A stretch of 55,475 nt of DNA from Borreliella garinii (GTDB taxonomy: Bacteria; Spirochaetota; Spirochaetia; JABEVK01). The stretch spans positions 1 to 55,475 of the forward strand of contig DYOB01000007.1 of the NCBI GenBank assembly GCA_020720765.1, given 5' to 3'. A model generated the notes under the pieces. It was not told where the DNA came from. It made no database searches and worked only from the letters and a program-made list of their open reading frames with translations. Both the position numbers and the translations under genes were made by a program. The stretch's first letter is position 1. Every line of letters begins with the position of its first letter. Positions 7,962-52,614 of this stretch are shown here, piece after piece.

Positions 7962-7990
7962 ATGACAATCCGCACATTTTCCAGTAGAAT
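7962..7990 (+). promoter_or_regulatory. Promoter of the PEPCK-like gene
   Basis: ATGACA (7962-7967), 17-bp spacer, TAGAAT (7985-7990). Predicted start near 7997 gives a 25-base leader that holds CCGGAGGA before the ATG at 8022. Confidence 0.5.
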
Positions 7991-8021
7991 ACCGCTGTAA
8001 GTTAAGTCACCGGAGGATACT

Positions 8022-11000
8022 ATGAAACCGATACGGGAATTTGGCCTGGGCTTGAACCTGCTCGCCCCTGAGCACAAGTCTCAAATGATTGAATACATCA
8101 ACCTGAAACTTGCCACTTTGGGGTATCCCTTTTACGAAAAAGGCGGCACCCGCGGGCTCAACCTAGCGAAGAACCTTATTCAGAATTTCAGGGAAAAAAA
8201 CCGCCTTCTCGATACCTACCTTCCGCCGGCGGATAAAAGAATCCAGGATTTTCTTAATTCTTATTTAGAAGGCATCGGTTTGGAATCCATTCCCAGACTC
8301 CCTTCAAATACACTTACCCTGGACAGGTACGGTATGGCCAGGGAACTCAGCTTCCCGCCGGATGGCCATAAAGTAGTGTCGCCGACTTTGACATCCTACA
8401 GGGTTTACAACGGTGTGCTTCATAACCCCCTCAACGACCGCAGAACCACAAAAGGCGTCTTCCACGTCACGGAAGGCGGCCTTCCGGTTCCCGTAGATAA
8501 GAAAGAAGTTCCCAAGGTCACCTTTGCACGGCTCCTCGAAGCCGCCTTCCGGCCGCCTGAAGATTTGATGACACTCCCCTTTACAACTACCCAGGAGAAA
8601 AAAGCCCAGACCTGGGTCAGCCTCCTTCTCCGCCCCATCGTGGTGCCGGAGGTTCCGGGATTCATCCATGAAAAGAGCATGGAAATTCGATTTTTTGCTC
8701 CCGGTAGCCTGATTTGCAACCTGGACTTTGTTGAAAGCATCTTCGGAAACGCTGGCGATCCTTACATCCCGGCCCAGGATTCAGGTTTGGATCCCCAGCA
8801 TTGGACCGGACACACAGGATGTATCATTCTTGCTACACATTTAACAAAACTCCGCAAACGGGACGTAGGGCTTCCAAAGTTTGAGGATGCCACCGAACGC
8901 CAGAAGCGGGACGGAATGTGCTGGAAAACAGAGGACGAGCTCTACAACGACGGCGGAGCCTTTAAAATCACCACCAGGGACGAACGTGGTGTCATGGTTA
9001 CGATTGTTGCAGACAATTACTTCGGTTATTCAAAAAAAGAAATCAAAACCCAGATAAGCTATTCTGCCAACCTCTACGGACTTGCCGAAGAGGAACACGC
9101 CGGCGGAGCATTGACCTATCCCAGATATAACCTTGGCATCAAATTCCTTCCCGATTCCAACCTTAAAACAAACGGCCAGACCTTCCTTGATGTTCAAAGA
9201 GTTCTGGGGGACAACATCGATGTTCAACCGCTGGGATATGCTATCGACAAGCACTTCAACGATATCATTTACCTGCCGGGAGACGCAATTATCGACATGG
9301 AGGACCAAACAGCATATTGGTACAGGGAAGGTCAAAAAATCACCCTCGACGTGAGGCCGAATTTCAACTATTTCCATCCCAGCGGGTACAAGGTCCATAT
9401 GGAACAACACCCTTCGACCAAAGCATGGAGGCTTGTCGGCACGGTTTCGGAGGGCACACTCTGCCACAAACCCTGTACGGTCAGCGGAGGCGGAAAGAGC
9501 GAGATCAGTAAAAGCATCTGGGATGCCATCAGTTTCAGTCCCATCACCATCGGTGATTTTAAAACGGACTTGGATATGGTTCAGGATATCCTTGATAAAG
9601 ATTATTCGAAACGTTTTATTGTCGAACCCGATCGAGGAGGACAGCCGCCGAGAACGCTGCTGAGCAATAAAAGAAGCCTAGGATCAGTGATAAAACTTTT
9701 TACCCCCAGCCCCCAGTACACACCCGAATTCAACACCTGGCTTGAATCACTCCCCCACCGGATAAAAGCGCTTGTTTTTCTCGTAAAACGCTTTTATCAG
9801 CCTGAATGGGGATCAGGGTGGAGGGAACACTTCAGTGTTGATGTCGTCAACGGAGCCCACGGCAACGTCCTGAAATTTGACGGCCGCCCTCTAATGGGTT
9901 CCTACCTCCGCATGGGTTTGAGTGACAACGGAACATGGTGGACCTTTAAACTGCGCCAGGACTTTATGCCGAGTGAAAAAGTTCAATGGGAAGACGATAT
10001 CACTGCAAGCGTTATCGTGCCTGCCAGACTTATTACAGGACTCAACTCGGAATATACTAATCCTTCGGTAAAGATGGCCCTAAACTGCGAGTACCGTTTC
10101 TTCCAGAGACCCGACGAGGCAGTCCATAGAGGCTACGACAAACAGACAGAAAAGGACATGTCGGGACCGGATAACTTCATCTCGAACTTTGAACCTTTCC
10201 CCCGCGAAGCCGCAGATAGTTTTCTCTCTAAGTCCATATCCTTCTCGGAATATTCTGAGCCCATGCAGACAGCAATACACAATATAGCGGACGACAGCAG
10301 ATTCGAATATTTCGTCGTTTCTTCCAACCCGAGAATCGTCGATGGCGGACCATCGAAAAATCCGCGTTACCTCCAGATGGATCCAGCCCTGCTTAAACCC
10401 CGCCAGCGCTATATAGCTGACGTTGGTGTCCGCCTGGCCCGAATGCTGGATAAAAACCTCCAGGTCCACCATCCCGTCAACGCCGTCTTACCGGGGCGCA
10501 GGAATAATCCTTCTGAACCCGCCGCAAAAATCAGACCGCTTGCAGTATATAACCCTATCCACTTCCAGGAATTGCCAGAGCTTTTCATGGACTTCCTCTG
10601 CAGTCTTACCGGGAAAAGCCCCAGTACGACCGGAGCAGGTTCGGAAGGAGCTTTAACCAAGGGGCCTTTTAACGCCCTGGTTCCCACTACCGACCTCAAT
10701 AACGCGCTTCTGGGTATGATCATCACGGATTACCACGCATTCTCTACAGCTGCGGGTTATATAGGCCCACGCTACAGGGTCGACCACGATATCAGCCTCC
10801 TCGTCCCCGAAGTGTGGTCCAGAATGTCCCCTCAGGAAAGAGATCCCTATTATCTCATAAAGTCAAAATGCCTTGAAAAGATAGAAAATTTTGAATTCAA
10901 GGGCCGGACCATTCATGCCAGCCGCCTGGGCTACAGGATCACCCGCGAGTTTTGCACGCTCTTTCTCGGCAGAATCTTCGACGACCCGGGGATAGTCTTC

Positions 11001-11477
11001 GTCGAGGAAATGCTGAAACCCGAACTCCAGAGCATGGAAGACTTTGTGGATGGGATAGAGAATATCACCGAGGCCCAGCATAAAGTCGCTCTTGAATACT
11101 TTGAAGATAACAGCGTCGAGAGCGCCATCCCTCCGCTTAAAGCCATCCTCCATATCATGGCGCACGGAACTTACGAAGGAAAGGATATTTCCCACCCGGA
11201 CATTAGAAAACTTTTTCAGCGTGAGAACGTCCTGGCCAGCGATTGGTACCGCTCAAGACTTGTGACCCTCCAGGAACGAAGTGCGAAAACACTTGAGAAT
11301 CAGATCGCATATATGGAAAAATTTCTTCAGACCCATCAGTCGTCGGACTTTCTAGGGGAACTCAACCAGCCTTCATTACTTGAATGGAGTAGGACCAAGC
11401 TTTCGGAGATTCGGTCCCAGGGTTTTATTGAAGAAATGACCGGAACCATCGGAGCCGACCCCCTTTTCCGTTTATGA
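8022..11477 (+). CDS. Probable PPi-type phosphoenolpyruvate carboxykinase
   Basis: Very large soluble protein of 1151 residues without signal peptide or membrane segments. Size and a nucleotide-binding-like segment CHKPCTVSGGGKSEISKS (about residues 480-498) fit the PPi-dependent PEP carboxykinases of Entamoeba and propionibacteria (about 1100-1150 residues), which interconvert oxaloacetate plus PPi with PEP plus phosphate and CO2. Other segments that look conserved: TGHTGCIILATHL, GGALTYPRYNLG, and ITDYHAFSTAAGYIGPRYRV. GGAGGA precedes the ATG. The stop codon overlaps the start of the CorA-like gene (ATGA). The assignment comes from recalled family features, not alignment; otherwise it is a conserved protein of unknown function. 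Confidence 0.6.
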   Translation: MKPIREFGLGLNLLAPEHKSQMIEYINLKLATLGYPFYEKGGTRGLNLAKNLIQNFREKNRLLDTYLPPADKRIQDFLNSYLEGIGLESIPRLPSNTLTLDRYGMARELSFPPDGHKVVSPTLTSYRVYNGVLHNPLNDRRTTKGVFHVTEGGLPVPVDKKEVPKVTFARLLEAAFRPPEDLMTLPFTTTQEKKAQTWVSLLLRPIVVPEVPGFIHEKSMEIRFFAPGSLICNLDFVESIFGNAGDPYIPAQDSGLDPQHWTGHTGCIILATHLTKLRKRDVGLPKFEDATERQKRDGMCWKTEDELYNDGGAFKITTRDERGVMVTIVADNYFGYSKKEIKTQISYSANLYGLAEEEHAGGALTYPRYNLGIKFLPDSNLKTNGQTFLDVQRVLGDNIDVQPLGYAIDKHFNDIIYLPGDAIIDMEDQTAYWYREGQKITLDVRPNFNYFHPSGYKVHMEQHPSTKAWRLVGTVSEGTLCHKPCTVSGGGKSEISKSIWDAISFSPITIGDFKTDLDMVQDILDKDYSKRFIVEPDRGGQPPRTLLSNKRSLGSVIKLFTPSPQYTPEFNTWLESLPHRIKALVFLVKRFYQPEWGSGWREHFSVDVVNGAHGNVLKFDGRPLMGSYLRMGLSDNGTWWTFKLRQDFMPSEKVQWEDDITASVIVPARLITGLNSEYTNPSVKMALNCEYRFFQRPDEAVHRGYDKQTEKDMSGPDNFISNFEPFPREAADSFLSKSISFSEYSEPMQTAIHNIADDSRFEYFVVSSNPRIVDGGPSKNPRYLQMDPALLKPRQRYIADVGVRLARMLDKNLQVHHPVNAVLPGRRNNPSEPAAKIRPLAVYNPIHFQELPELFMDFLCSLTGKSPSTTGAGSEGALTKGPFNALVPTTDLNNALLGMIITDYHAFSTAAGYIGPRYRVDHDISLLVPEVWSRMSPQERDPYYLIKSKCLEKIENFEFKGRTIHASRLGYRITREFCTLFLGRIFDDPGIVFVEEMLKPELQSMEDFVDGIENITEAQHKVALEYFEDNSVESAIPPLKAILHIMAHGTYEGKDISHPDIRKLFQRENVLASDWYRSRLVTLQERSAKTLENQIAYMEKFLQTHQSSDFLGELNQPSLLEWSRTKLSEIRSQGFIEEMTGTIGADPLFRL

Positions 11478-26404: not shown

Positions 26405-26412
26405 CTATGAAT

Positions 26413-29400
26413 ATGTTATACCTAGAAAAAATACCCGCTCTTATTCAGTGGCTCTCACCCCCAAAATTACGCGTCCCCGATCGTACGGTTCTCTTTCCTG
26501 TAGTGTTTCTCTTGAGTTTTTTCGTTATTGCCCTGGAAACACTGCACTTCCACGTTCTTCTGAACGTCACAAACTATCTTTCTTCAACCGCCATCTTCGG
26601 TATTGCCCTTTTCGGCATCGCCTTGGGCGGTTTGGCAAGTTTCTACTTGGGAAAACTTGACCGGAACCTTACGGTAATTTTTTCGACAATCGGCACCTTT
26701 TTCAGCATTTACCTATCCTATTGGAACCTCTATAACGTACATGCAGTTTCGTTCCCCATTTTTCTTATCCTTCCTTATTTCTTCGCCTCAACCGCTATTT
26801 CCACGGCCTTTTCCCTTCCGGAATCCCAAGTCGTCTACTTTATCAACCTTGTCGGTTCCGGGCTTGGAGTCCTATTTCCCATCCTTGCAGTTAGTGCTCT
26901 GAAAAGCGAAGGTGCGATGGTCCTTTTGAGTTTTATTCCCGCAGTTCTCCTGTTTCTCCTCGCCCTCCGCGTGGCTTTTATTCCCGGAAAGATTCTCACT
27001 CTGCTAGGGGCCATTCTTCTGACTATGTCTGCCGTGGATTCCTGGTCCCTGATCAGAGATTTTCCCGAAAGAATAGCGCAAACCGTTTGGGAAGAAAAAA
27101 TACTTCCTGATACCGGAAAAATAGGAGATAGTCCCTACGTCACTTCCCCCGCAGAGACCCTCCTTAAAAGAATTTATAAACTCGATCCGGATTCCGGGAA
27201 CTACCTTCTTACTGTGGATGACTACGATAGGAAAAGGCTGGAAACAATTTTTGATGTCCTGGGTTTTAGAAATAGGTTTGGCCTGCCCTTTTACTCGAGC
27301 TGGGAAACCCGGACGGTGCCTGAATCACTCGAATCCATCCCTCAAGACCACTTTGAAAACGAGATCCTTCCCCTTGCAGTCGAACGCTACCGCTACGTTT
27401 CGGGAGAAAATTTTGACTTAAGGTTTTTGAATAAAGCCTACACCTTGGACGAAACAACGAAAGAATACGTCCTCTCAAGCGAAGCCTACGACAGAGAAAG
27501 AGCCCGGTTTCTCCTTGCGTCACTAGGACACTGGCCCATGATGGACTTAAATATGGATATCCGGCGCCACGGCAACCTCAGACTCGGTTACAAGTTCCAC
27601 AGCGACAACCAGCGTATTTTCCTCAGTGAAGACTCCAACCTCGGAAGGGTAGAATATTCGGGTTACGACGATTACATGTTTATGAGCATGAATGGGGTCA
27701 TCCTTGACGGAATTGATAACTTTAACGGCGCCCCGTGGGACCCGCGTGTACCCAGGCCGGCCTTTCAGAAAGACCCGAAAATTTTTATTGTTGGTTTATC
27801 TGCCGACGGAATAGTTAAAAGTGCAAAAAGGGTTCCTGGTGCCCAAGTGGCGGGTATTGAAATCAACCCCACTATCCTTCGTACCATGCAGGAAGAAGGT
27901 CAGTACTCTCGTTTTGCCAGACTCCCCTACGAGGATGTCGAAGTTCATGCCGGTGAGGGAAGAAGTTTCCTGGAACACGATCCCAGAACCTGGGACCTTA
28001 TCAGCCTTATGAATATCCATATGGAACACGGACCGGTGAGCACGCTCAGTCCTGAAAATTTCCATACCGTCCAAGGAACGCAGGTCCTGCTTAACAAACT
28101 CACCGACCGCGGACTCATCGTTTACGAAGAGATTATTTTTGACCGCCGGGGAGAGCTCTTCTTTCTCAAACTCCTCAACACAGTTCGAACAGCGTTGACA
28201 GAAATGGGTTACACCGAACCCGAAAAACATATTCATATCTTCAGTTGGGATTTCAGCGAAGGCGGCCGCGCATTCAGGACTCTCAGCGTTAAAAAAACTC
28301 CTTTTACAGAATCCGAAGCCCGTGATATGGAGGATAACGTCCGAACCCTAATAGGAACCGGATGGTACCAAAATGTGGAGACCAACTACAACCCTTATGT
28401 CAGGCTGAATACCGTATACGATAAATGGCTCCGTTCACCCATGGTAACCAGCAGGGACGAGTTGCCCGGGAACATCGTCGCCACAGATTTTATCCGAAAT
28501 ATTCTCTCACGGGTCAACGATCCCGAAGACGCCCAGTTTCTGCTCTCTACCTACACGCACACCCGTTACGGCCGGTATTACACCAACATTTCCAACCTCA
28601 GTGAACGTTCACAGGCTAAACTTCGCAATATCCTGGATGGAGTTGGTTACCCGATTACCATGGACCTCGCCCCCGTCACCGATGACCAGCCCTTTCCCTT
28701 TAACGTTTACGAAAACAGGAAAGAGGCATGGGATAACTTTTGGATGATTTTCCCCTTAACCCTATTGTTGATCGTACCGGTACTTCTCCTTCTTCTTAGG
28801 CATCCAAAAAATGAAAAATCCGAAAAAGGTTTTCTGCATTTTGCCCTCCCCGTCCTCTATGCATCCTTATCTGGTTTTGGTTTCATGCTTGTGGAAATAG
28901 TCCTGATCCAGAAATTCCAAATTTTCATCGGCGACCCAACCTCGACCGTCGTTGTTATCCTCGGGGGGCTTTTGGTTTTCAGCGGGGCTGGAAGTCTTGT
29001 CAGCCGTTTCCTTTCACGATGGGTTCTTATAGGGGTCACCATGCTTATCCCGATTATGCTTGTCGTCTTTATGTTCAACCTGGACGGCATCTTCCAAAAT
29101 TTTGGAGGTCTGGATCTCGGCGCCAGGTTATGGCTCAGTGTTTTTCTCCTACTCCCGCTATCGCTTCCGATGGGAATGGCTTTTCCAAAGATCATCGAGC
29201 TCGCAGTTAAAAATTCCACCCCTGAAATCGGCGCCCTGCTTTTCGGTATCAGCGGCGGCTTTTCGACCTTAGGTTCCATCAGCAGTTTCGTTATCAGTGT
29301 TTCCTATGGATTCTCCACCACCTTCCAGATTGGTTTTCTCGTGTATTCCCTCGCACTTTCAATCCTGGTGATCCTGATTGTGATGAACCCTCCTGAGAAA

Positions 29401-29415
29401 AAAACAGCCTCGTGA
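26413..29415 (+). CDS. Polytopic membrane protein with spermidine-synthase-like domain
   Basis: 1000 residues. About seven membrane helices come first (26500-27080), then a long soluble region, then about six more helices (28740-29390). The soluble part contains a Rossmann methyltransferase-like core: KIFIVGLSADGIVKSAKRVP, AGIEINPTI, VEVHAGEGRSFL, WDLISLMNIH. This matches the membrane-embedded spermine/spermidine-synthase-like proteins. The aminopropyl-transfer aspartates are not evident, so it is probably not a true spermidine synthase. Before the core lie two similar segments (SGNYLLTVDDYDRKRLETIF and TKEYVLSSEAYDRERARFLL). A start at 26407 is also possible. Coupled to the next gene (GTGA). 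Confidence 0.75.
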   Translation: MLYLEKIPALIQWLSPPKLRVPDRTVLFPVVFLLSFFVIALETLHFHVLLNVTNYLSSTAIFGIALFGIALGGLASFYLGKLDRNLTVIFSTIGTFFSIYLSYWNLYNVHAVSFPIFLILPYFFASTAISTAFSLPESQVVYFINLVGSGLGVLFPILAVSALKSEGAMVLLSFIPAVLLFLLALRVAFIPGKILTLLGAILLTMSAVDSWSLIRDFPERIAQTVWEEKILPDTGKIGDSPYVTSPAETLLKRIYKLDPDSGNYLLTVDDYDRKRLETIFDVLGFRNRFGLPFYSSWETRTVPESLESIPQDHFENEILPLAVERYRYVSGENFDLRFLNKAYTLDETTKEYVLSSEAYDRERARFLLASLGHWPMMDLNMDIRRHGNLRLGYKFHSDNQRIFLSEDSNLGRVEYSGYDDYMFMSMNGVILDGIDNFNGAPWDPRVPRPAFQKDPKIFIVGLSADGIVKSAKRVPGAQVAGIEINPTILRTMQEEGQYSRFARLPYEDVEVHAGEGRSFLEHDPRTWDLISLMNIHMEHGPVSTLSPENFHTVQGTQVLLNKLTDRGLIVYEEIIFDRRGELFFLKLLNTVRTALTEMGYTEPEKHIHIFSWDFSEGGRAFRTLSVKKTPFTESEARDMEDNVRTLIGTGWYQNVETNYNPYVRLNTVYDKWLRSPMVTSRDELPGNIVATDFIRNILSRVNDPEDAQFLLSTYTHTRYGRYYTNISNLSERSQAKLRNILDGVGYPITMDLAPVTDDQPFPFNVYENRKEAWDNFWMIFPLTLLLIVPVLLLLLRHPKNEKSEKGFLHFALPVLYASLSGFGFMLVEIVLIQKFQIFIGDPTSTVVVILGGLLVFSGAGSLVSRFLSRWVLIGVTMLIPIMLVVFMFNLDGIFQNFGGLDLGARLWLSVFLLLPLSLPMGMAFPKIIELAVKNSTPEIGALLFGISGGFSTLGSISSFVISVSYGFSTTFQIGFLVYSLALSILVILIVMNPPEKKTAS

Positions 29416-32903: not shown

Positions 32904-33677
32904 ATGGACCAAATTAAGGTTTCTTCCTATTATTTTTTTGTGACTATAGGAATTTACGGAATGGGCCGTTTCGGCTCCTTTTGGGCCCAGAGCCTTGCCC
33001 GCAGTTTCCCTGGGGACGAGGTCCTCGGGTACTCAAAAAATTCCCTACCGCCGGATGGTGTAAAAAAAACCAGCCTAGAAGAGGTTTGCACCTGCGAAAC
33101 CCTCTTTCTCTGCACCTCGATTTCCAGCCTCGAAACTGTCGTTCATGAGATCGCCGGACACGTCGGGAAAAACACCCTTGTGGCCGACACCTGTTCGGTC
33201 AAACATTTCCCTACCAAACTCCTAGGGGAGGTTTTCACAGACACCCAGCCGCTTTTCGCAACCCACCCCATGTTTGGTCCCGATTCGGGAAAAGACGACC
33301 TCAAGGACCTTCCGATTGTGGTCTATCCTTTCGGAAAACCCAGTCCCCTTCATATGGAGTGGATGGTACGTTTCGAAACCATGGGCCTAAAAGTTTTAAA
33401 AATGACCCCGGAGGAACACGACAGGTCGGCCGCCGTCACCCAGGGTATCACGCATTTAGTGGGACGCATCCTCGGTGAGATGAACCTTTCGAGCCACCCC
33501 ATGTCCACCAAGGGATTTCTCAGCTTGGAAGAGATCGTCCGGCAAACGTGCAACGACCCCTACCAACTCTTCCTCGACCTCCAGAGATTCAACCCATTTA
33601 CAAGTCACATGCGTGAAAGTTTTATGCGCGCCTCGGAAAAAGTTTTGCACTCCATACAAGGAATTGCCAATGATTAA
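32904..33677 (+). CDS. tyrA: Prephenate dehydrogenase (TyrA-like)
   Basis: 257 residues. Rossmann motif IGIYGMGRFGSFWAQSLA near residue 14, ETLFLCTSISSLETVV, VADTCSVKHFPT, LFATHPMFGPDSG (substrate-binding His/Pro motif of the family), and an alpha-helical C-terminus with TQGITHLVGRIL. Oxidatively decarboxylates prephenate (or arogenate) toward tyrosine. No ACT or chorismate-mutase domain. The start at 32904 fits the -10 position; a GTG at 32940 is an alternative. The last eight bases overlap the next gene. Confidence 0.88.
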   Translation: MDQIKVSSYYFFVTIGIYGMGRFGSFWAQSLARSFPGDEVLGYSKNSLPPDGVKKTSLEEVCTCETLFLCTSISSLETVVHEIAGHVGKNTLVADTCSVKHFPTKLLGEVFTDTQPLFATHPMFGPDSGKDDLKDLPIVVYPFGKPSPLHMEWMVRFETMGLKVLKMTPEEHDRSAAVTQGITHLVGRILGEMNLSSHPMSTKGFLSLEEIVRQTCNDPYQLFLDLQRFNPFTSHMRESFMRASEKVLHSIQGIAND

Positions 33678-34461
33678 AGCTGTCATCTCGGATATGGATG
33701 GAGTTATTTATAGAGGAAGTCAGCTCGTGAACGGTGCCGACCATTTTATCCATAACTTACTCGATCGTGGTATCCCCTTTCTTTTCCTCACAAACAACAG
33801 CGAGCAAACCTCAATGGAACTTGTGTTGAAACTTAAAAAAATGGGCGTCAATGGACTTGAAGAGAAACACTTTCTAACTTCCGCAAAGACGACTGCCCTG
33901 TTTCTATCCCAGCAGAAACCCGGAGCCTCGTGTTATGTCCTGGGCGGGGACGGTCTGAGGCACGAAATCGAAGCTGCCAGCTGCCTTCTTAGCGAAACCT
34001 CCCCGGATTACGTCGTCGTGGGAAAAACGCGCTCAGCGGATTTTAAAATGCTCACGACAGCGTCCCGGCTTGTCGCCGGAGGGTCCAAGTTTATCGGGAC
34101 CAACCCCGACCTTATCGACCCCGTGGAAGGAGGGGGTTTTGAACCCGCGGCCGGAGCCATTCTTGCGGCTGTCGAAGCGGCTACTGGGAAGAAACCCTAT
34201 ATCGTGGGGAAACCCAACGCCCTGATGATGCTGATTGCGCGGAAACAGCTCGGTGCCCACTCGAGCGAGACCGTGATGATAGGCGACAGGATGGATACGG
34301 ACATTGTCGCAGGGATGGAAGCGGGTATGCGGACAATTTTAGTACTCTCCGGTGTTTCAAGCAGGGAGACCCTGCTCGACTTTCCCTACCGTCCGGACGG
34401 GGTTTACCCTTCTGTCGGTGAAATTCCATATTCGGAATTCGGGTTTGAAAATGGAAATTAA
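33670..34461 (+). CDS. HAD-superfamily IIA phosphatase (NagD-like)
   Basis: 263 residues. Motif I VISDMDGVIYRGSQLV (Asp8, Asp10), FLFLTNNSEQTSMEL, and C-terminal KPYIVGKPNALMMLIA (Lys) and VMIGDRMDTDIVAGMEAGM. These are hallmarks of the NagD/p-nitrophenylphosphatase class, which includes phosphoglycolate and glycerol-phosphate phosphatases. The ATG at 33670 overlaps the tyrA end and is preceded by AAGGAA. The next gene, for glycerol-1-phosphate dehydrogenase, overlaps its end by 11 bases, which makes a polyol-phosphate substrate plausible. Confidence 0.88.
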   Translation: MIKAVISDMDGVIYRGSQLVNGADHFIHNLLDRGIPFLFLTNNSEQTSMELVLKLKKMGVNGLEEKHFLTSAKTTALFLSQQKPGASCYVLGGDGLRHEIEAASCLLSETSPDYVVVGKTRSADFKMLTTASRLVAGGSKFIGTNPDLIDPVEGGGFEPAAGAILAAVEAATGKKPYIVGKPNALMMLIARKQLGAHSSETVMIGDRMDTDIVAGMEAGMRTILVLSGVSSRETLLDFPYRPDGVYPSVGEIPYSEFGFENGN

Positions 34462-35503
34462 CATTCCCTCTCTTCTGCGCATTAAACCAGGCGCACTCTC
34501 GAAAATAGGTAAATATCTGAAAGGTTCAGGTTGGAATCGGGTAGCCCTGTTTTGGGGCGAGGGGATAAAGGACCTCGTGGGGTCAACTGTTAAAATCTCC
34601 TTCTCAACAGCCGGAATCGATCAGATTTCTGAAAGCACCATTGATTCCAACGACATAGAGAAGATTATTCAATCCTCTCTCGCACTACCTGCGAATCTGG
34701 ATGCAATTGTAGCCATTGGCGGAGGAAAAGCTCTCGATGCCGGAAAATATTTCGCCTACCTTTTGCATAAACCGCTAGCTGTGATTCCCACCACCATCAG
34801 CAACGACGGCTTCTGTAGCCCCGGTGCTTCCCTTTCGGTAAAGGGAAAAAGGCGCTCGTTCAAAACGAATATGCCGGAAATGGTGATTCTCGACACTGAA
34901 TTGCTAGCGTCGGCCCCATCTCCCCTCCAATATTCCGGAATAGGCGATCTTTTCTGTAAAGCTACATCTGTTTGGGATTGGAAATACGCTTTTCGAACGC
35001 GAGGCGAAACTGTCAATGACTTTGCCGCTGTTATAGCCCGCAACGCAGTAGATACCTTCGACCATTTTTCACCGAAAGATCTCAAGAACTTGGAATTCCT
35101 CCGTATCCTATCCAGCTCACTGATGATGTGTGGCATTTCCATGGCCATTGCCGGCTCGAGTCGTCCAGCAAGCGGAGCCGAACACTTGATCAGTCATGCG
35201 TACGATTCCCTGGCCCCCAAGCCGTCTTTGCATGGCCTGCAGGTAGGGGTAGCTTCAAGACTTGTTGCACACCTTCAAAAGGATACCCTACTTCAAATCG
35301 AACGCTGTTCTGAAGAAAGCGGATTTTGGGATTTTGTCTCAAAAAATCCTTTGGAACGAAAATATTTTACGCAAGCGTTACGCGAGGCAAGGTCTGCGAA
35401 ACCAAACTATGCAACAATCCTTGACGAACCGGACGCAATAGAGAAACTCATTAAACTCAGCGAAACCCTTCCCGAGTTCAAAGCGGTCCTTGACAGCCCC
35501 TAG
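34451..35503 (+). CDS. Glycerol-1-phosphate dehydrogenase (EgsA/AraM-like)
   Basis: 350 residues of the iron/zinc-dependent dehydrogenase fold. AIVAIGGGKALDAGKYFAYL binds NAD(P). PLAVIPTTISNDGFCSPGASL is the sn-glycerol-1-phosphate dehydrogenase signature (compare PTaaShDG in archaeal EgsA). Metal ligands are seen in GIGDLFCKATSVWDW (Asp about 167), GAEHLISHAYD (His about 244) and HGLQVGV (His about 261). Reduces dihydroxyacetone phosphate to sn-glycerol-1-phosphate, the enantiomer used in archaeal lipids; bacterial AraM does the same. No prenyl transferase follows. The start at 34451 fits overlap with the HAD gene. Confidence 0.88.
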   Translation: MEINIPSLLRIKPGALSKIGKYLKGSGWNRVALFWGEGIKDLVGSTVKISFSTAGIDQISESTIDSNDIEKIIQSSLALPANLDAIVAIGGGKALDAGKYFAYLLHKPLAVIPTTISNDGFCSPGASLSVKGKRRSFKTNMPEMVILDTELLASAPSPLQYSGIGDLFCKATSVWDWKYAFRTRGETVNDFAAVIARNAVDTFDHFSPKDLKNLEFLRILSSSLMMCGISMAIAGSSRPASGAEHLISHAYDSLAPKPSLHGLQVGVASRLVAHLQKDTLLQIERCSEESGFWDFVSKNPLERKYFTQALREARSAKPNYATILDEPDAIEKLIKLSETLPEFKAVLDSP

Positions 35504-35524: not shown

Positions 35525-35884
35525 ATGGCAGAAATCGATCTTCGTAATGTCGATGAACGCGAATTGGACACGGTCCTCGCGAACGATATTCACTTTACAG
35601 GGCTCCTCGAATTTAACGCCCCCCTGATGATAAAAGGTTATTTCCGGGGAGAGATATCCGCACAGAGCGATATTTTTATTGGCGATAACGCCACGGTCGA
35701 GGCGAAAATCCAGGCCCAGGTCATCAGTAACCGAGGCCATATTAAAGGAAACATCACCGCTTCGAAAAAGATAGAGCTCTATTCCGGCAGCAGGGTCGAC
35801 GGCGATATGACCGCACCCGATATTGAAATGGAAAGCGGCGCGCGTTTTAACGGAATCTGCTCCATGCCTAAGGATAACGGCTAG
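35525..35884 (+). CDS. Bactofilin (polymer-forming cytoskeletal protein)
   Basis: 119 residues, mostly a right-handed beta-helix of DUF583 type: LEFNAPLMIKGYFRGEISAQ, IFIGDNATVEAKIQAQVI, IKGNITASKKIELYSGSRVD, and GDMTAPDIEMESGARFNGIC. These self-assemble into cytoplasmic filaments, often guiding local cell-wall synthesis or shape. There is no Shine-Dalgarno sequence; its own promoter puts the ATG at +1. The TPR protein gene starts one base after the stop region. Confidence 0.92.
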   Translation: MAEIDLRNVDERELDTVLANDIHFTGLLEFNAPLMIKGYFRGEISAQSDIFIGDNATVEAKIQAQVISNRGHIKGNITASKKIELYSGSRVDGDMTAPDIEMESGARFNGICSMPKDNG

Positions 35885-50371: not shown

Positions 50372-51212
50372 TGCTAACCTCAAGGTTGCCTTCCAGGGTG
50401 AACCCGGTGCTTTTAGCGAAATGGCTGTTAAAGATGTCTTTCCCGATGCCATCCCTCTTCCCAGGAAGTCATTCCGTGAAGTATTCGAATCCCTGAAATC
50501 CGGACATGCTCGCTTTGCGGCCCTCCCCGTTGAGAACAGCCTTGCAGGGAGTGTTCATGAAAACTACGACCTTTTACTCGATTACCCGGATTTGCATATC
50601 GTTGGGGAGGTCCAGGTACGTGTGAGTCACTGCTTACTGACGATAGAGTCCGCTACTTATGAAGATATTAAGACAGTCATCAGCCACCCCCAGGCTCTGA
50701 TGCAGAGCAGCGCTTTTCTTGACAAGTACCCTTCTTGGTTGAGGCAGCCTTTTTACGATACAGCCGGAAGCGCGGCCCATGTCGCTGCGACCCAGGATAC
50801 CACTACTGCGGCAATAGCCAGTGAAGGCGCAGCATCTGTCTATGGACTCAAGATTCTTTCGAAGGCCATAGAAAATAATCCGCATAACTTCACAAGGTTT
50901 TTCGTTGTTGCGCGCTCGTCTGAACCCAGCCTTAAAGCGCCTAATAAAACCAGCATTGTTTTTACCCTGGGAAAAGAAGCAGGATCGCTGGCTAAAGTTC
51001 TCACAATTCTGGCACAGAAGGGACTCAGCCTTACTAAGCTCGAATCGCGGCCCATCCACGGAAAACCCTGGCAGTATATGTTCTATGCAGATATGGAACT
51101 GAACTCCAACCTCGATACTTTTGAACAGGTATTAAAAGACTTGGAAAATTACGCTTCGGAATTAAGACTTCTCGGGCATTACCATTCCACCCTGCTTATT
51201 CCTCAATCTTAA
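50361..51212 (+). CDS. pheA: Prephenate dehydratase
   Basis: 283 residues. Converts prephenate to phenylpyruvate for phenylalanine synthesis. Catalytic domain 1-190: VAFQGEPGAFSEMAVKD, ARFAALPVENSLAGSVHENY, VISHPQALMQ, and the TRF motif in HNFTRFFVVAR. C-terminal ACT domain 195-280 with the Phe-binding ESRP motif in LTKLESRPIHGKPWQYMFYA, so feedback inhibition by phenylalanine is expected. No chorismate mutase domain. The ATG sits inside the end of the SLT gene. The 3' end overlaps the convergent helical-protein gene by 17 bases. Confidence 0.95.
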   Translation: MSSDANLKVAFQGEPGAFSEMAVKDVFPDAIPLPRKSFREVFESLKSGHARFAALPVENSLAGSVHENYDLLLDYPDLHIVGEVQVRVSHCLLTIESATYEDIKTVISHPQALMQSSAFLDKYPSWLRQPFYDTAGSAAHVAATQDTTTAAIASEGAASVYGLKILSKAIENNPHNFTRFFVVARSSEPSLKAPNKTSIVFTLGKEAGSLAKVLTILAQKGLSLTKLESRPIHGKPWQYMFYADMELNSNLDTFEQVLKDLENYASELRLLGHYHSTLLIPQS

Positions 51213-52614
51213 CACCCAATCTCTTCAGTTGTTCAATTTCTTCAACCGCGCTCATATACTCGAGTTTTGACTTATTTGTCGCTGAAAGCATGGACCGGAT
51301 TTGCATAACCTCAACTTTAGTCCCTCTGATAAGATTCTTTTTTTCTTTGGGAACTTCTGACTTGAAATACACATCCAAGGCGTTAATTTTTTCAACCATA
51401 CGGCTGACTTCAAGAAAATTGGTATTGATAAACTCAAGAATTTCTTTTTCGGGACGTGATGACAGTTTTAAATAAAAATTTGAAGTTTTCAACCCAATGG
51501 ATTCCAGGTTTTTAATCTTAGCAAATCCATCTTTTTGGAATTTATCAAAATCGATCTTCTCGGGTCTTACTACGGCGGTCTGCGGATCGAGCATCTCCAC
51601 GTTGTAAATAAGAGGCTCCCGCTTCTGCCCAAGAATAGATTTAATCCACTGGTTAAAGTGTTCTCCAAAACTCATCCTTCGGTTCTCCAGAACTATGGAA
51701 TTCTCAGTGAGTTTTTTAAAAGCCGCTTCAAGCGGAACACCGACATTGGATAGGTTACGAAGAGTATCAAGAAGCTGGGCCTTGAAATCGATAACCTTCT
51801 TCTCCTTGTTTTTTTTCTCCACTTTAACCGTCAGTTTCTGAAGGAGGTCCCGGCGTAGATTTTCACCAAGCCCCGGTGTGTCTTCTGCAAATATTTCTTT
51901 TACCAATTCGGGAATAAAAATCTCGCCTTTAAGGTGTGTGACAAATTCTTTCCTAACGGTTCTAGCAACGGCTTCGGGGTCGTTCTCATTTTCCAGTCTG
52001 GCATTTTTAAAAACATGCCCGATCGTGGACCTCAGAAGGTGTTTGTATTCTTCCCGTTTGTAGACGCTTATCCTTTTGATAAGTTCAAGGATCTTTTTTT
52101 GAATGATTGCTAACTGATTTGCAGCATCCTTTATGAGTCCGCTTGTCAGAGGGTCATCGGGCGCCTGGGCCTTCGAGATAAAACTCGTCATAGCCCGTTG
52201 TACAACTTCCTTATGATTCATCGAAAGACTATCCCAGACGATAAATCGTATAAATGCTGCGAGGGCTTTGATGCGTTGAAAATTAATATAGTCTATGCTG
52301 AACTGGTAGTAATTGTTAATAAAATCAAGTTGTGACATAAACTTGGACAACCGGACGCTCATTTCATTCATTCTTTCGTTATCCCCGAAGGGTTCGGCAG
52401 AAATTGGTACGACTTCATTGAACATTTCGTCGTACTTATATGGGTCTTGGATGAGAATTCCTTTTTTAAGGAGGATCTTCATGACCGTACCCATCATGGA
52501 ATGAAAATTGCTGAACTCAGTTTTTAAAGCAGGAAATAGATTTTTATCCAATTCCTGAAGGTATTGATGGAGCTTGCCGTTTAAATCATGAAGAAATGCT
52601 TCCGAGTCTTCCAT
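51196..52614 (-). CDS. Large helical protein of unknown function
   Basis: 472 residues, not recognised. Strongly alpha-helical and charged; many KxxE-type and Lys/Glu/Leu-rich stretches suggest coiled coils (KVEKKNKEKKVIDFKAQLLD, VPKEKKNLIRGTKVEVMQIR). No signal peptide or membrane segment. The last residues EIEQLKRLGVKIEE look like a short coiled coil. Similar in character to the protein at 18388-19953, though no motif alignment could be made by eye. Convergent with pheA and divergent from the glucosidase gene. No clear Shine-Dalgarno sequence. Confidence 0.75.
   Translation of the reverse strand: MEDSEAFLHDLNGKLHQYLQELDKNLFPALKTEFSNFHSMMGTVMKILLKKGILIQDPYKYDEMFNEVVPISAEPFGDNERMNEMSVRLSKFMSQLDFINNYYQFSIDYINFQRIKALAAFIRFIVWDSLSMNHKEVVQRAMTSFISKAQAPDDPLTSGLIKDAANQLAIIQKKILELIKRISVYKREEYKHLLRSTIGHVFKNARLENENDPEAVARTVRKEFVTHLKGEIFIPELVKEIFAEDTPGLGENLRRDLLQKLTVKVEKKNKEKKVIDFKAQLLDTLRNLSNVGVPLEAAFKKLTENSIVLENRRMSFGEHFNQWIKSILGQKREPLIYNVEMLDPQTAVVRPEKIDFDKFQKDGFAKIKNLESIGLKTSNFYLKLSSRPEKEILEFINTNFLEVSRMVEKINALDVYFKSEVPKEKKNLIRGTKVEVMQIRSMLSATNKSKLEYMSAVEEIEQLKRLGVKIEE

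Follow-up and report, generated by a model that had tools for sequence, protein, structure and literature searches.

What use does a bacterium have for a dehydrogenase of the glycerol-1-phosphate dehydrogenase (G1PDH) family whose gene overlaps that of a phosphatase? The question is raised by a locus of Borreliella garinii (Spirochaetota; assembly GCA_020720765.1, contig DYOB01000007.1, positions 1 to 55,475 of the forward strand), and the term window is used here for this whole stretch of 55,475 nucleotides (nt). A prediction made from its letters alone had placed a dehydrogenase beside an overlapping NagD-type phosphatase of the HAD superfamily at 33670-35503, and both open reading frames (ORFs) and their overlap were confirmed, as follows:

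33670-34461, + strand: gene of a NagD-like HAD-IIA phosphatase (263 amino acids, aa), above the cut-off of TIGR01460
34451-35503, + strand: gene of a G1PDH-family dehydrogenase (350 aa from the ATG at 34451), with NF002022 as best family, below its cut-off
34451-34461, + strand: overlap of 11 nt between the 3′ end of the phosphatase gene and the start of the dehydrogenase gene

The overlap suggests translational coupling of phosphatase and dehydrogenase. The best explanation, held with moderate confidence, is that the two genes form a two-step glycerol-making unit running via sn-glycerol-1-phosphate (G1P). The dehydrogenase would reduce dihydroxyacetone phosphate (DHAP) with NAD(P)H to G1P, and the HAD phosphatase would convert G1P to glycerol; in most paired relatives the latter step would fall to an MtnX-like HAD-IB phosphatase, which in a spirochaete-centred clade was apparently replaced by a NagD-type HAD-IIA enzyme. 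This route is proposed because a phosphatase adjoins a dehydrogenase seemingly suited to a phosphorylated substrate, because two HAD subclasses take this position, and because no third constant partner was seen. The substrates, the enantiomer of the product, and the direction are predicted, and the unit might serve as an NADH sink or provide an osmolyte or a precursor.

The dehydrogenase and the phosphatase

The dehydrogenase is best matched by NF002022, the model of NAD(P)-dependent G1PDH (E 2.2e-60, 204.5 bits). Among solved structures, its best relatives are 3ce9 from Clostridium acetobutylicum, deposited as a glycerol dehydrogenase, and the archaeal G1PDHs 5fb3 and 4rgq. An AlphaFold model, for which 52 sequences of the window and the loci were used, reaches a mean pLDDT of 94.4, and the closest folds to it are, in order, 3ce9 (the nearest solved structure, 39% identical, with a template modeling (TM) score of 0.95), the archaeal G1PDHs, of which the first is that of Methanocaldococcus jannaschii with NADPH and DHAP, AraM, and GldA. 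Residues were counted in an alignment of 99 proteins, including 14 archaeal or AraM-like rows and four GldA rows. The columns of D166, H245, and H261, presumably the metal ligands, are retained in the bacterial clade described below and are common to GldA, and the window dehydrogenase retains the SSRPASG-EH loop; the original prediction, according to which the EgsA signature and the metal ligands are kept, thus holds. The residues D176, W177, S241, E244, and H249 occur in 14/14 archaeal or AraM-like rows, in 56/56 rows paired with a phosphatase, and in 0/4 GldA rows, where a deletion affects the SSRPASG loop. Together, the SxxPxSGxEHxxxH loop and the D-W pair, present in the window dehydrogenase and absent in the four GldA rows, place it on the G1PDH superfamily branch that comprises EgsA, AraM, and the bacterial clade.

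These residues bear on the alternative that survives best, although we regard it as unlikely, namely that the order of the two steps is reversed: the phosphatase would convert DHAP to dihydroxyacetone, the dehydrogenase would then reduce this to glycerol in the manner of GldA, and no G1P would be formed. HdpA of Corynebacterium glutamicum, whose gene is named nagD in the paper's primers, is a DHAP phosphatase, and with GldA or YqhD expressed the dihydroxyacetone is converted to glycerol (PMC4478622). The name under which 3ce9 was deposited points the same way, and TM-scores alone cannot tell G1PDH from GldA (TMq of 0.78 for 4rgq_B vs 0.77 for 5zxl_A). The two are, however, separated by the order of E-values, in which archaeal G1PDH ranks ahead of GldA by both sequence and fold, and by the residues listed above, which the archaeal and AraM-like rows share and the four GldA rows lack. 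Assignment of the window dehydrogenase to GldA itself was rejected, since the SSRPASG loop is present and the protein does not group with GldA in the tree.

The phosphatase scores 149.5 bits against the HAD-IIA model TIGR01460 (cut-off 100.15) and is accordingly a member of HAD-IIA. It resembles the NagD/HAD-IIA phosphatases in family match and overall similarity and differs from the NagD equivalog in that it scores 233.3 bits against PRK10444, under the cut-off of 368. Its best solved relative is Escherichia coli NagD (2c4n, E 1.8e-62), and among its other solved HAD-IIA relatives are the glycerol-3-phosphate phosphatases 7po7 and 4i9f, the latter of which we take to be Rv1692. The Rv1692 phosphatase of Mycobacterium tuberculosis releases glycerol (PMC12722247). 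The idea that NagD is found only alongside G1PDH was rejected, a NagD-family match being present in 30 of 60 genomes (window genome included) and four members of the linked NagD clade occurring without G1PDH.

Partnership across bacteria

Scanning bacterial and archaeal genomes yielded 510 confirmed relatives of the dehydrogenase, of which the best 80, from named genomes, were taken as loci, and the counts therefore describe near relatives. Immediately upstream and on the same strand, an MtnX-like HAD-IB phosphatase lies in 50/80 loci, a NagD-type HAD-IIA phosphatase in 4/80, and neither in 26/80; six of these 26 (three archaeal, three deep bacterial) fall outside the clade. Record titles place HAD-IB hosts in, among other groups, Alphaproteobacteria, Elusimicrobiota, Melainabacteria, Omnitrophota, Planctomycetota, Acidobacteriota, Actinomycetota, Desulfovibrionaceae, Clostridiaceae, and Sporolactobacillaceae. 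The assignment to the HAD-IB family TIGR01489 was checked on four partners, of which three (L037, L076, and L159) score above the cut-off and L079 slightly under it (79.9 vs 81.55), and HAD motif I is present in 52/52 and motif IV in 51/52 HAD-IB partners (L159 and L160 included). The HAD-IB and NagD query sets contained the loci's own proteins, so that values of 100% are self-matches.

Phosphatase and dehydrogenase are separated, between aligned ends, by at most 72 nt in the 50 HAD-IB loci and at most 123 nt in the four NagD loci, and 39/54 pairs overlap or abut when the start codon nearest the phosphatase stop is taken, a choice that favors short gaps. One count gave an adjacency tally of 51 rather than 54 because the pieces of L068, L074, and L075 are partial matches inside the adjacent gene. 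At E < 1e-10, the 932 kb of locus DNA yielded a single additional homologue of the two phosphatases, namely the HAD-IIA protein of L103. No in-frame fusion of HAD phosphatase and G1PDH occurs among the 54 pairs, and L068 and L072 show long ORFs that were rejected as fusions, their starts being over-extended. No neighboring family that recurs across host groups was seen beside the pair, most neighbors being unannotated; an opposite-strand gene family recurs in 12 alphaproteobacterial loci.

Within the window's own phylum, 12/392 sampled genomes carry the dehydrogenase gene (E <= 1e-40), with NagD directly upstream in nine (window and congener included), HAD-IB in two, and a contig end cutting the locus in one. 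Two of the nine NagD loci (L152 and L155) match L032 and L035, are therefore not independent of the 80, and were omitted from the trees. In the congener (G001), the order of a prephenate-dehydrogenase-like gene, NagD, G1PDH, and bactofilin is the same as in the window, at 68% protein identity. Because this order is retained at such a distance and a HAD phosphatase is adjacent in dozens of genomes, the pairing of NagD and G1PDH goes beyond chance.

A quick tree sets a clade of 78 bacterial dehydrogenase rows apart from the archaeal and AraM-like rows (SH-aLRT 99), AraM-like being our own label for rows from class relatives; AraM of Bacillus subtilis itself is absent from the tree. The window dehydrogenase does not stand with the AraM-like rows in the trees. 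The original label "archaeal-type" therefore calls for qualification, the protein belonging to a bacterial clade apart from both archaeal and AraM-like rows. The first tree leaves out L007, L011, L014, and L016 (badly called ORFs or cut), and the second also leaves out L010, L015, L017, L103, L106, and L109 (long or deep branches) and the GldA rows L018-L021. A careful tree of 97 rows groups the 11 NagD-linked dehydrogenases in a single clade (93/81; recovered in 88% of 200 bootstrap trees), and the parent branch (92/88) unites them with 17 HAD-IB-linked and five unpaired rows. Likewise, a single 15-row clade of the NagD tree (100/100) holds all 11 linked NagDs, and 19 other NagDs from the class lie outside it. 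The distances of HAD-IB and G1PDH are concordant (n = 52, Mantel r 0.935, maximum of 2000 permutations 0.157), with r inflated by host relatedness. The nesting of a single NagD-linked clade among HAD-IB-linked dehydrogenases indicates a probable exchange of the phosphatase between HAD subclasses, and the simplest history, with moderate support, is that an old HAD-IB partner was replaced by NagD in one lineage.

Two members of the dehydrogenase clade, L112 and L113, are plasmid-borne and have no HAD phosphatase alongside. The former (7983-9032; Nitratidesulfovibrio vulgaris DP4, 198-kb plasmid pDVUL01) lies near type III secretion genes, and the protein phosphatase annotated upstream of it is of the SpoIIE family, unrelated to HAD.

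Alternative roles of the pair

Several observations weigh against the proposed route from DHAP via G1P to glycerol. The dehydrogenase scores 204.5 bits against NF002022, which is curated as the EgsA equivalog with a cut-off of 413 bits, and no reported activity for any member of its clade came to light in the open-licence literature. An adjacent HAD phosphatase is lacking in 22/78 clade rows, including all nine Lachnospiraceae clade rows. The residue R238 is retained in 6/6 NagD-linked, 38/50 HAD-IB-linked, 8/22 unpaired clade, and 13/14 archaeal or AraM-like rows, and is replaced by S or A in 12/50 HAD-IB-linked and 14/22 unpaired clade rows; given this unevenness, some clade members may have drifted in function. 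As for the phosphatase, NagD is single-copy in the window genome (E <= 0.001) and may have other duties, and four NagDs of the linked clade, three of them from genomes of the same family as the window, occur without this G1PDH: G003 and G004 contain only dehydrogenase homologues of 30-32% identity, and none was found in G005, which is just 76% complete, or in G052. Finally, a haloarchaeal protein annotated as G1PDH is a glycolaldehyde reductase with no notable G1PDH activity (PMC9700705).

The haloarchaeal case and the uneven R238 also favor a second alternative, that the pair acts on another metabolite, be it a different ketose or aldose phosphate or an aldehyde, for instance glycolaldehyde, and the haloarchaeal pathway furthermore has a HAD phosphatase, which acts on ribulose bisphosphate (PMC9700705). 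We consider this improbable, as most G1PDH signature residues are retained and the largely unannotated neighborhoods show no family recurring across host groups.

The unpaired Lachnospiraceae members of the clade (L084, L087, L090, L093, L095, L096, L098, L101, and L102) may have a shifted function. Among all 22 unpaired clade rows, nine have N at position 231 and nine have S at position 118.

The third alternative concerns lipids and polymers. The original prediction had reported no geranylgeranylglyceryl phosphate (GGGP) synthase near the pair, and this now extends to the whole window genome (3.4 Mb in 527 contigs, 97.8% complete, with one copy of the dehydrogenase), in which the sole PF01884/PcrB match is partial and reaches 20.3 bits. 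This match was rejected as a GGGP synthase, its ORF being HisA-like as recognized by eye. Among 60 genomes, the window genome included, GGGP synthase matches at E <= 0.001 occur in four (window genome, congener, G020, and G058), each of them partial with 60-69 of 226 positions covered, and only that of G058 reaches the cut-off (25.1 vs 23.9 bits). A sample of 49 genomes with the pair was drawn from the 54 paired loci, with L054, L094, L097, L104, and L105 not covered; it contains matches in 13 genomes, five of them above the cut-off and four full-length (L088, L108, L033, and L034), the fifth (G080) being a short piece counted with neighbors in frame. Since 45/49 pair-bearing genomes, of unstated completeness, yielded no GGGP synthase of full length, the pair does not generally belong to a lipid pathway of the archaeal type.

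The genomes of L033 and L034 (metagenome-assembled genomes labeled Fibrobacter succinogenes SulCav and bin_47) combine a NagD-linked G1PDH with a full-length GGGP synthase, and G1P may be used there for lipids as well as for glycerol. In both trees the two lie close together, and the Fibrobacter label seems questionable.

The window genome has a gene of the glycerol-3-phosphate dehydrogenase type (PF01210), no match to PlsY, and none to the CDP-glycerol polymerase family PF04464. Its glycerol kinase match is partial (45.6 bits vs a cut-off of 590), and glycerol made in this host may therefore leave the cell or find another use. The original prediction had offered two fates for G1P, conversion to glycerol or an envelope polymer; the former is now best supported, by the pairing with HAD phosphatases of two subclasses across phyla, whereas the latter finds no support in this genome, which shows neither PF04464 nor GGGP synthase. 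That the pathway instead ends at G1P, destined for a lipid or an envelope polymer, with NagD as a mere neighbor acting as a house-cleaning or nucleotide phosphatase, has in our view little probability: NagD relatives do occur without this G1PDH, PlsY and PlsC take both glycerol-phosphate enantiomers (PMC13400652), a Selenomonas G1PDH lies within a PF04464 polymer cluster, and two NagD-linked genomes have a full-length GGGP synthase, but the window genome lacks a match to PlsY, PF04464, or full-length GGGP synthase, and neighborhood alone hardly explains a recurrent pairing with two HAD subclasses.

The Selenomonas locus (L103, 3299-9533; Selenomonas infelix) contains a deeper-branching G1PDH flanked by a PF04464 glycerophosphate polymerase and by a nucleotidyltransferase; a HAD-IIA phosphatase and a fucosyltransferase-like gene come next, and a polysaccharide-export-type gene lies upstream. 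It is possibly a cluster for a G1P-based surface polymer.

Known systems and the surroundings of the pair

In the eukaryotic Gpd/Gpp pathway, DHAP is reduced and a HAD phosphatase follows. The window unit, as proposed, would share these two steps and differ in that the dehydrogenase of Gpd/Gpp is unrelated and the predicted stereochemistry is opposite. The window dehydrogenase resembles archaeal EgsA (4rgq and 5fb3) in fold, in the columns of the presumed metal ligands, in the SSRPASG loop, and in the D-W pair; by contrast, it is 27-37% identical, stands in a separate clade, lies under the NF002022 cut-off, and has a host genome without a GGGP synthase match of full length. AraM of B. subtilis (9h4x) is a bacterial G1PDH of the same superfamily, although it is 21% identical in a structural alignment and the AraM-like class relatives stand elsewhere in the tree. 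AraM serves an ether-lipid pathway, and G1PDH/AraM is named by the authors as the only known route to G1P, another being inferred by them in E. coli (PMC13400652).

Bacterial G1PDH homologues are already known in many phyla (PMC5059525; PMC6431249), and the enzyme families are known; the pairing with a phosphatase and a bacterial route from G1P to glycerol seem new. No description of either was found in searches of the open-licence literature, and nothing on the dehydrogenase-phosphatase pair was found in PMC7852524, PMC12718374, and PMC4921024. Bacterial G1PDH genes have been used in arguments on the "lipid divide" and on the membrane of the last universal common ancestor (PMC6431249; PMC5059525). 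With a confidence slightly short of even, we propose that a two-gene cassette found in many phyla provides a mirror-image route to glycerol, that its phosphatase was exchanged at least once between HAD-IB and HAD-IIA, and that a good share of the bacterial G1PDH genes regarded as "archaeal lipid" genes belong to this cassette and not to lipids. If a widespread G1PDH clade feeds a phosphatase and not a lipid synthase, finding G1PDH in a bacterium is no evidence of archaeal-type lipids, G1PDH trees in lipid-divide studies may mix two functions, and some bacterial "archaeal lipid" genes may be unrelated to lipids. Furthermore, a cellular pool of G1P bears on the acceptance of both enantiomers by PlsY and PlsC (PMC13400652).

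The pair is flanked on both sides by genes that are retained in the congener:

32904-33677, + strand: gene encoding a prephenate-dehydrogenase nucleotide-binding domain; 8-nt overlap with the start of the phosphatase gene
35525-35884, + strand: bactofilin gene, 3′ of the dehydrogenase gene

The product of the former (257 aa) is prephenate-dehydrogenase-like, with a Pfam match that covers part of the PF02153 nucleotide-binding domain only, and the bactofilin gene is probably a neighbor outside the two-gene unit. Elsewhere in the window, the ORF at 26407-29415 (1002 aa) has no Pfam or NCBIfam family at 0.001, the ORF at 8022-11477 (1151 aa) has no Pfam family at 1e-10, and a TP0584-family protein, which together with the nearest named relatives points to a spirochaete, is encoded as follows:

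51199-52614: TP0584-family protein, 434 bits vs a cut-off of 125

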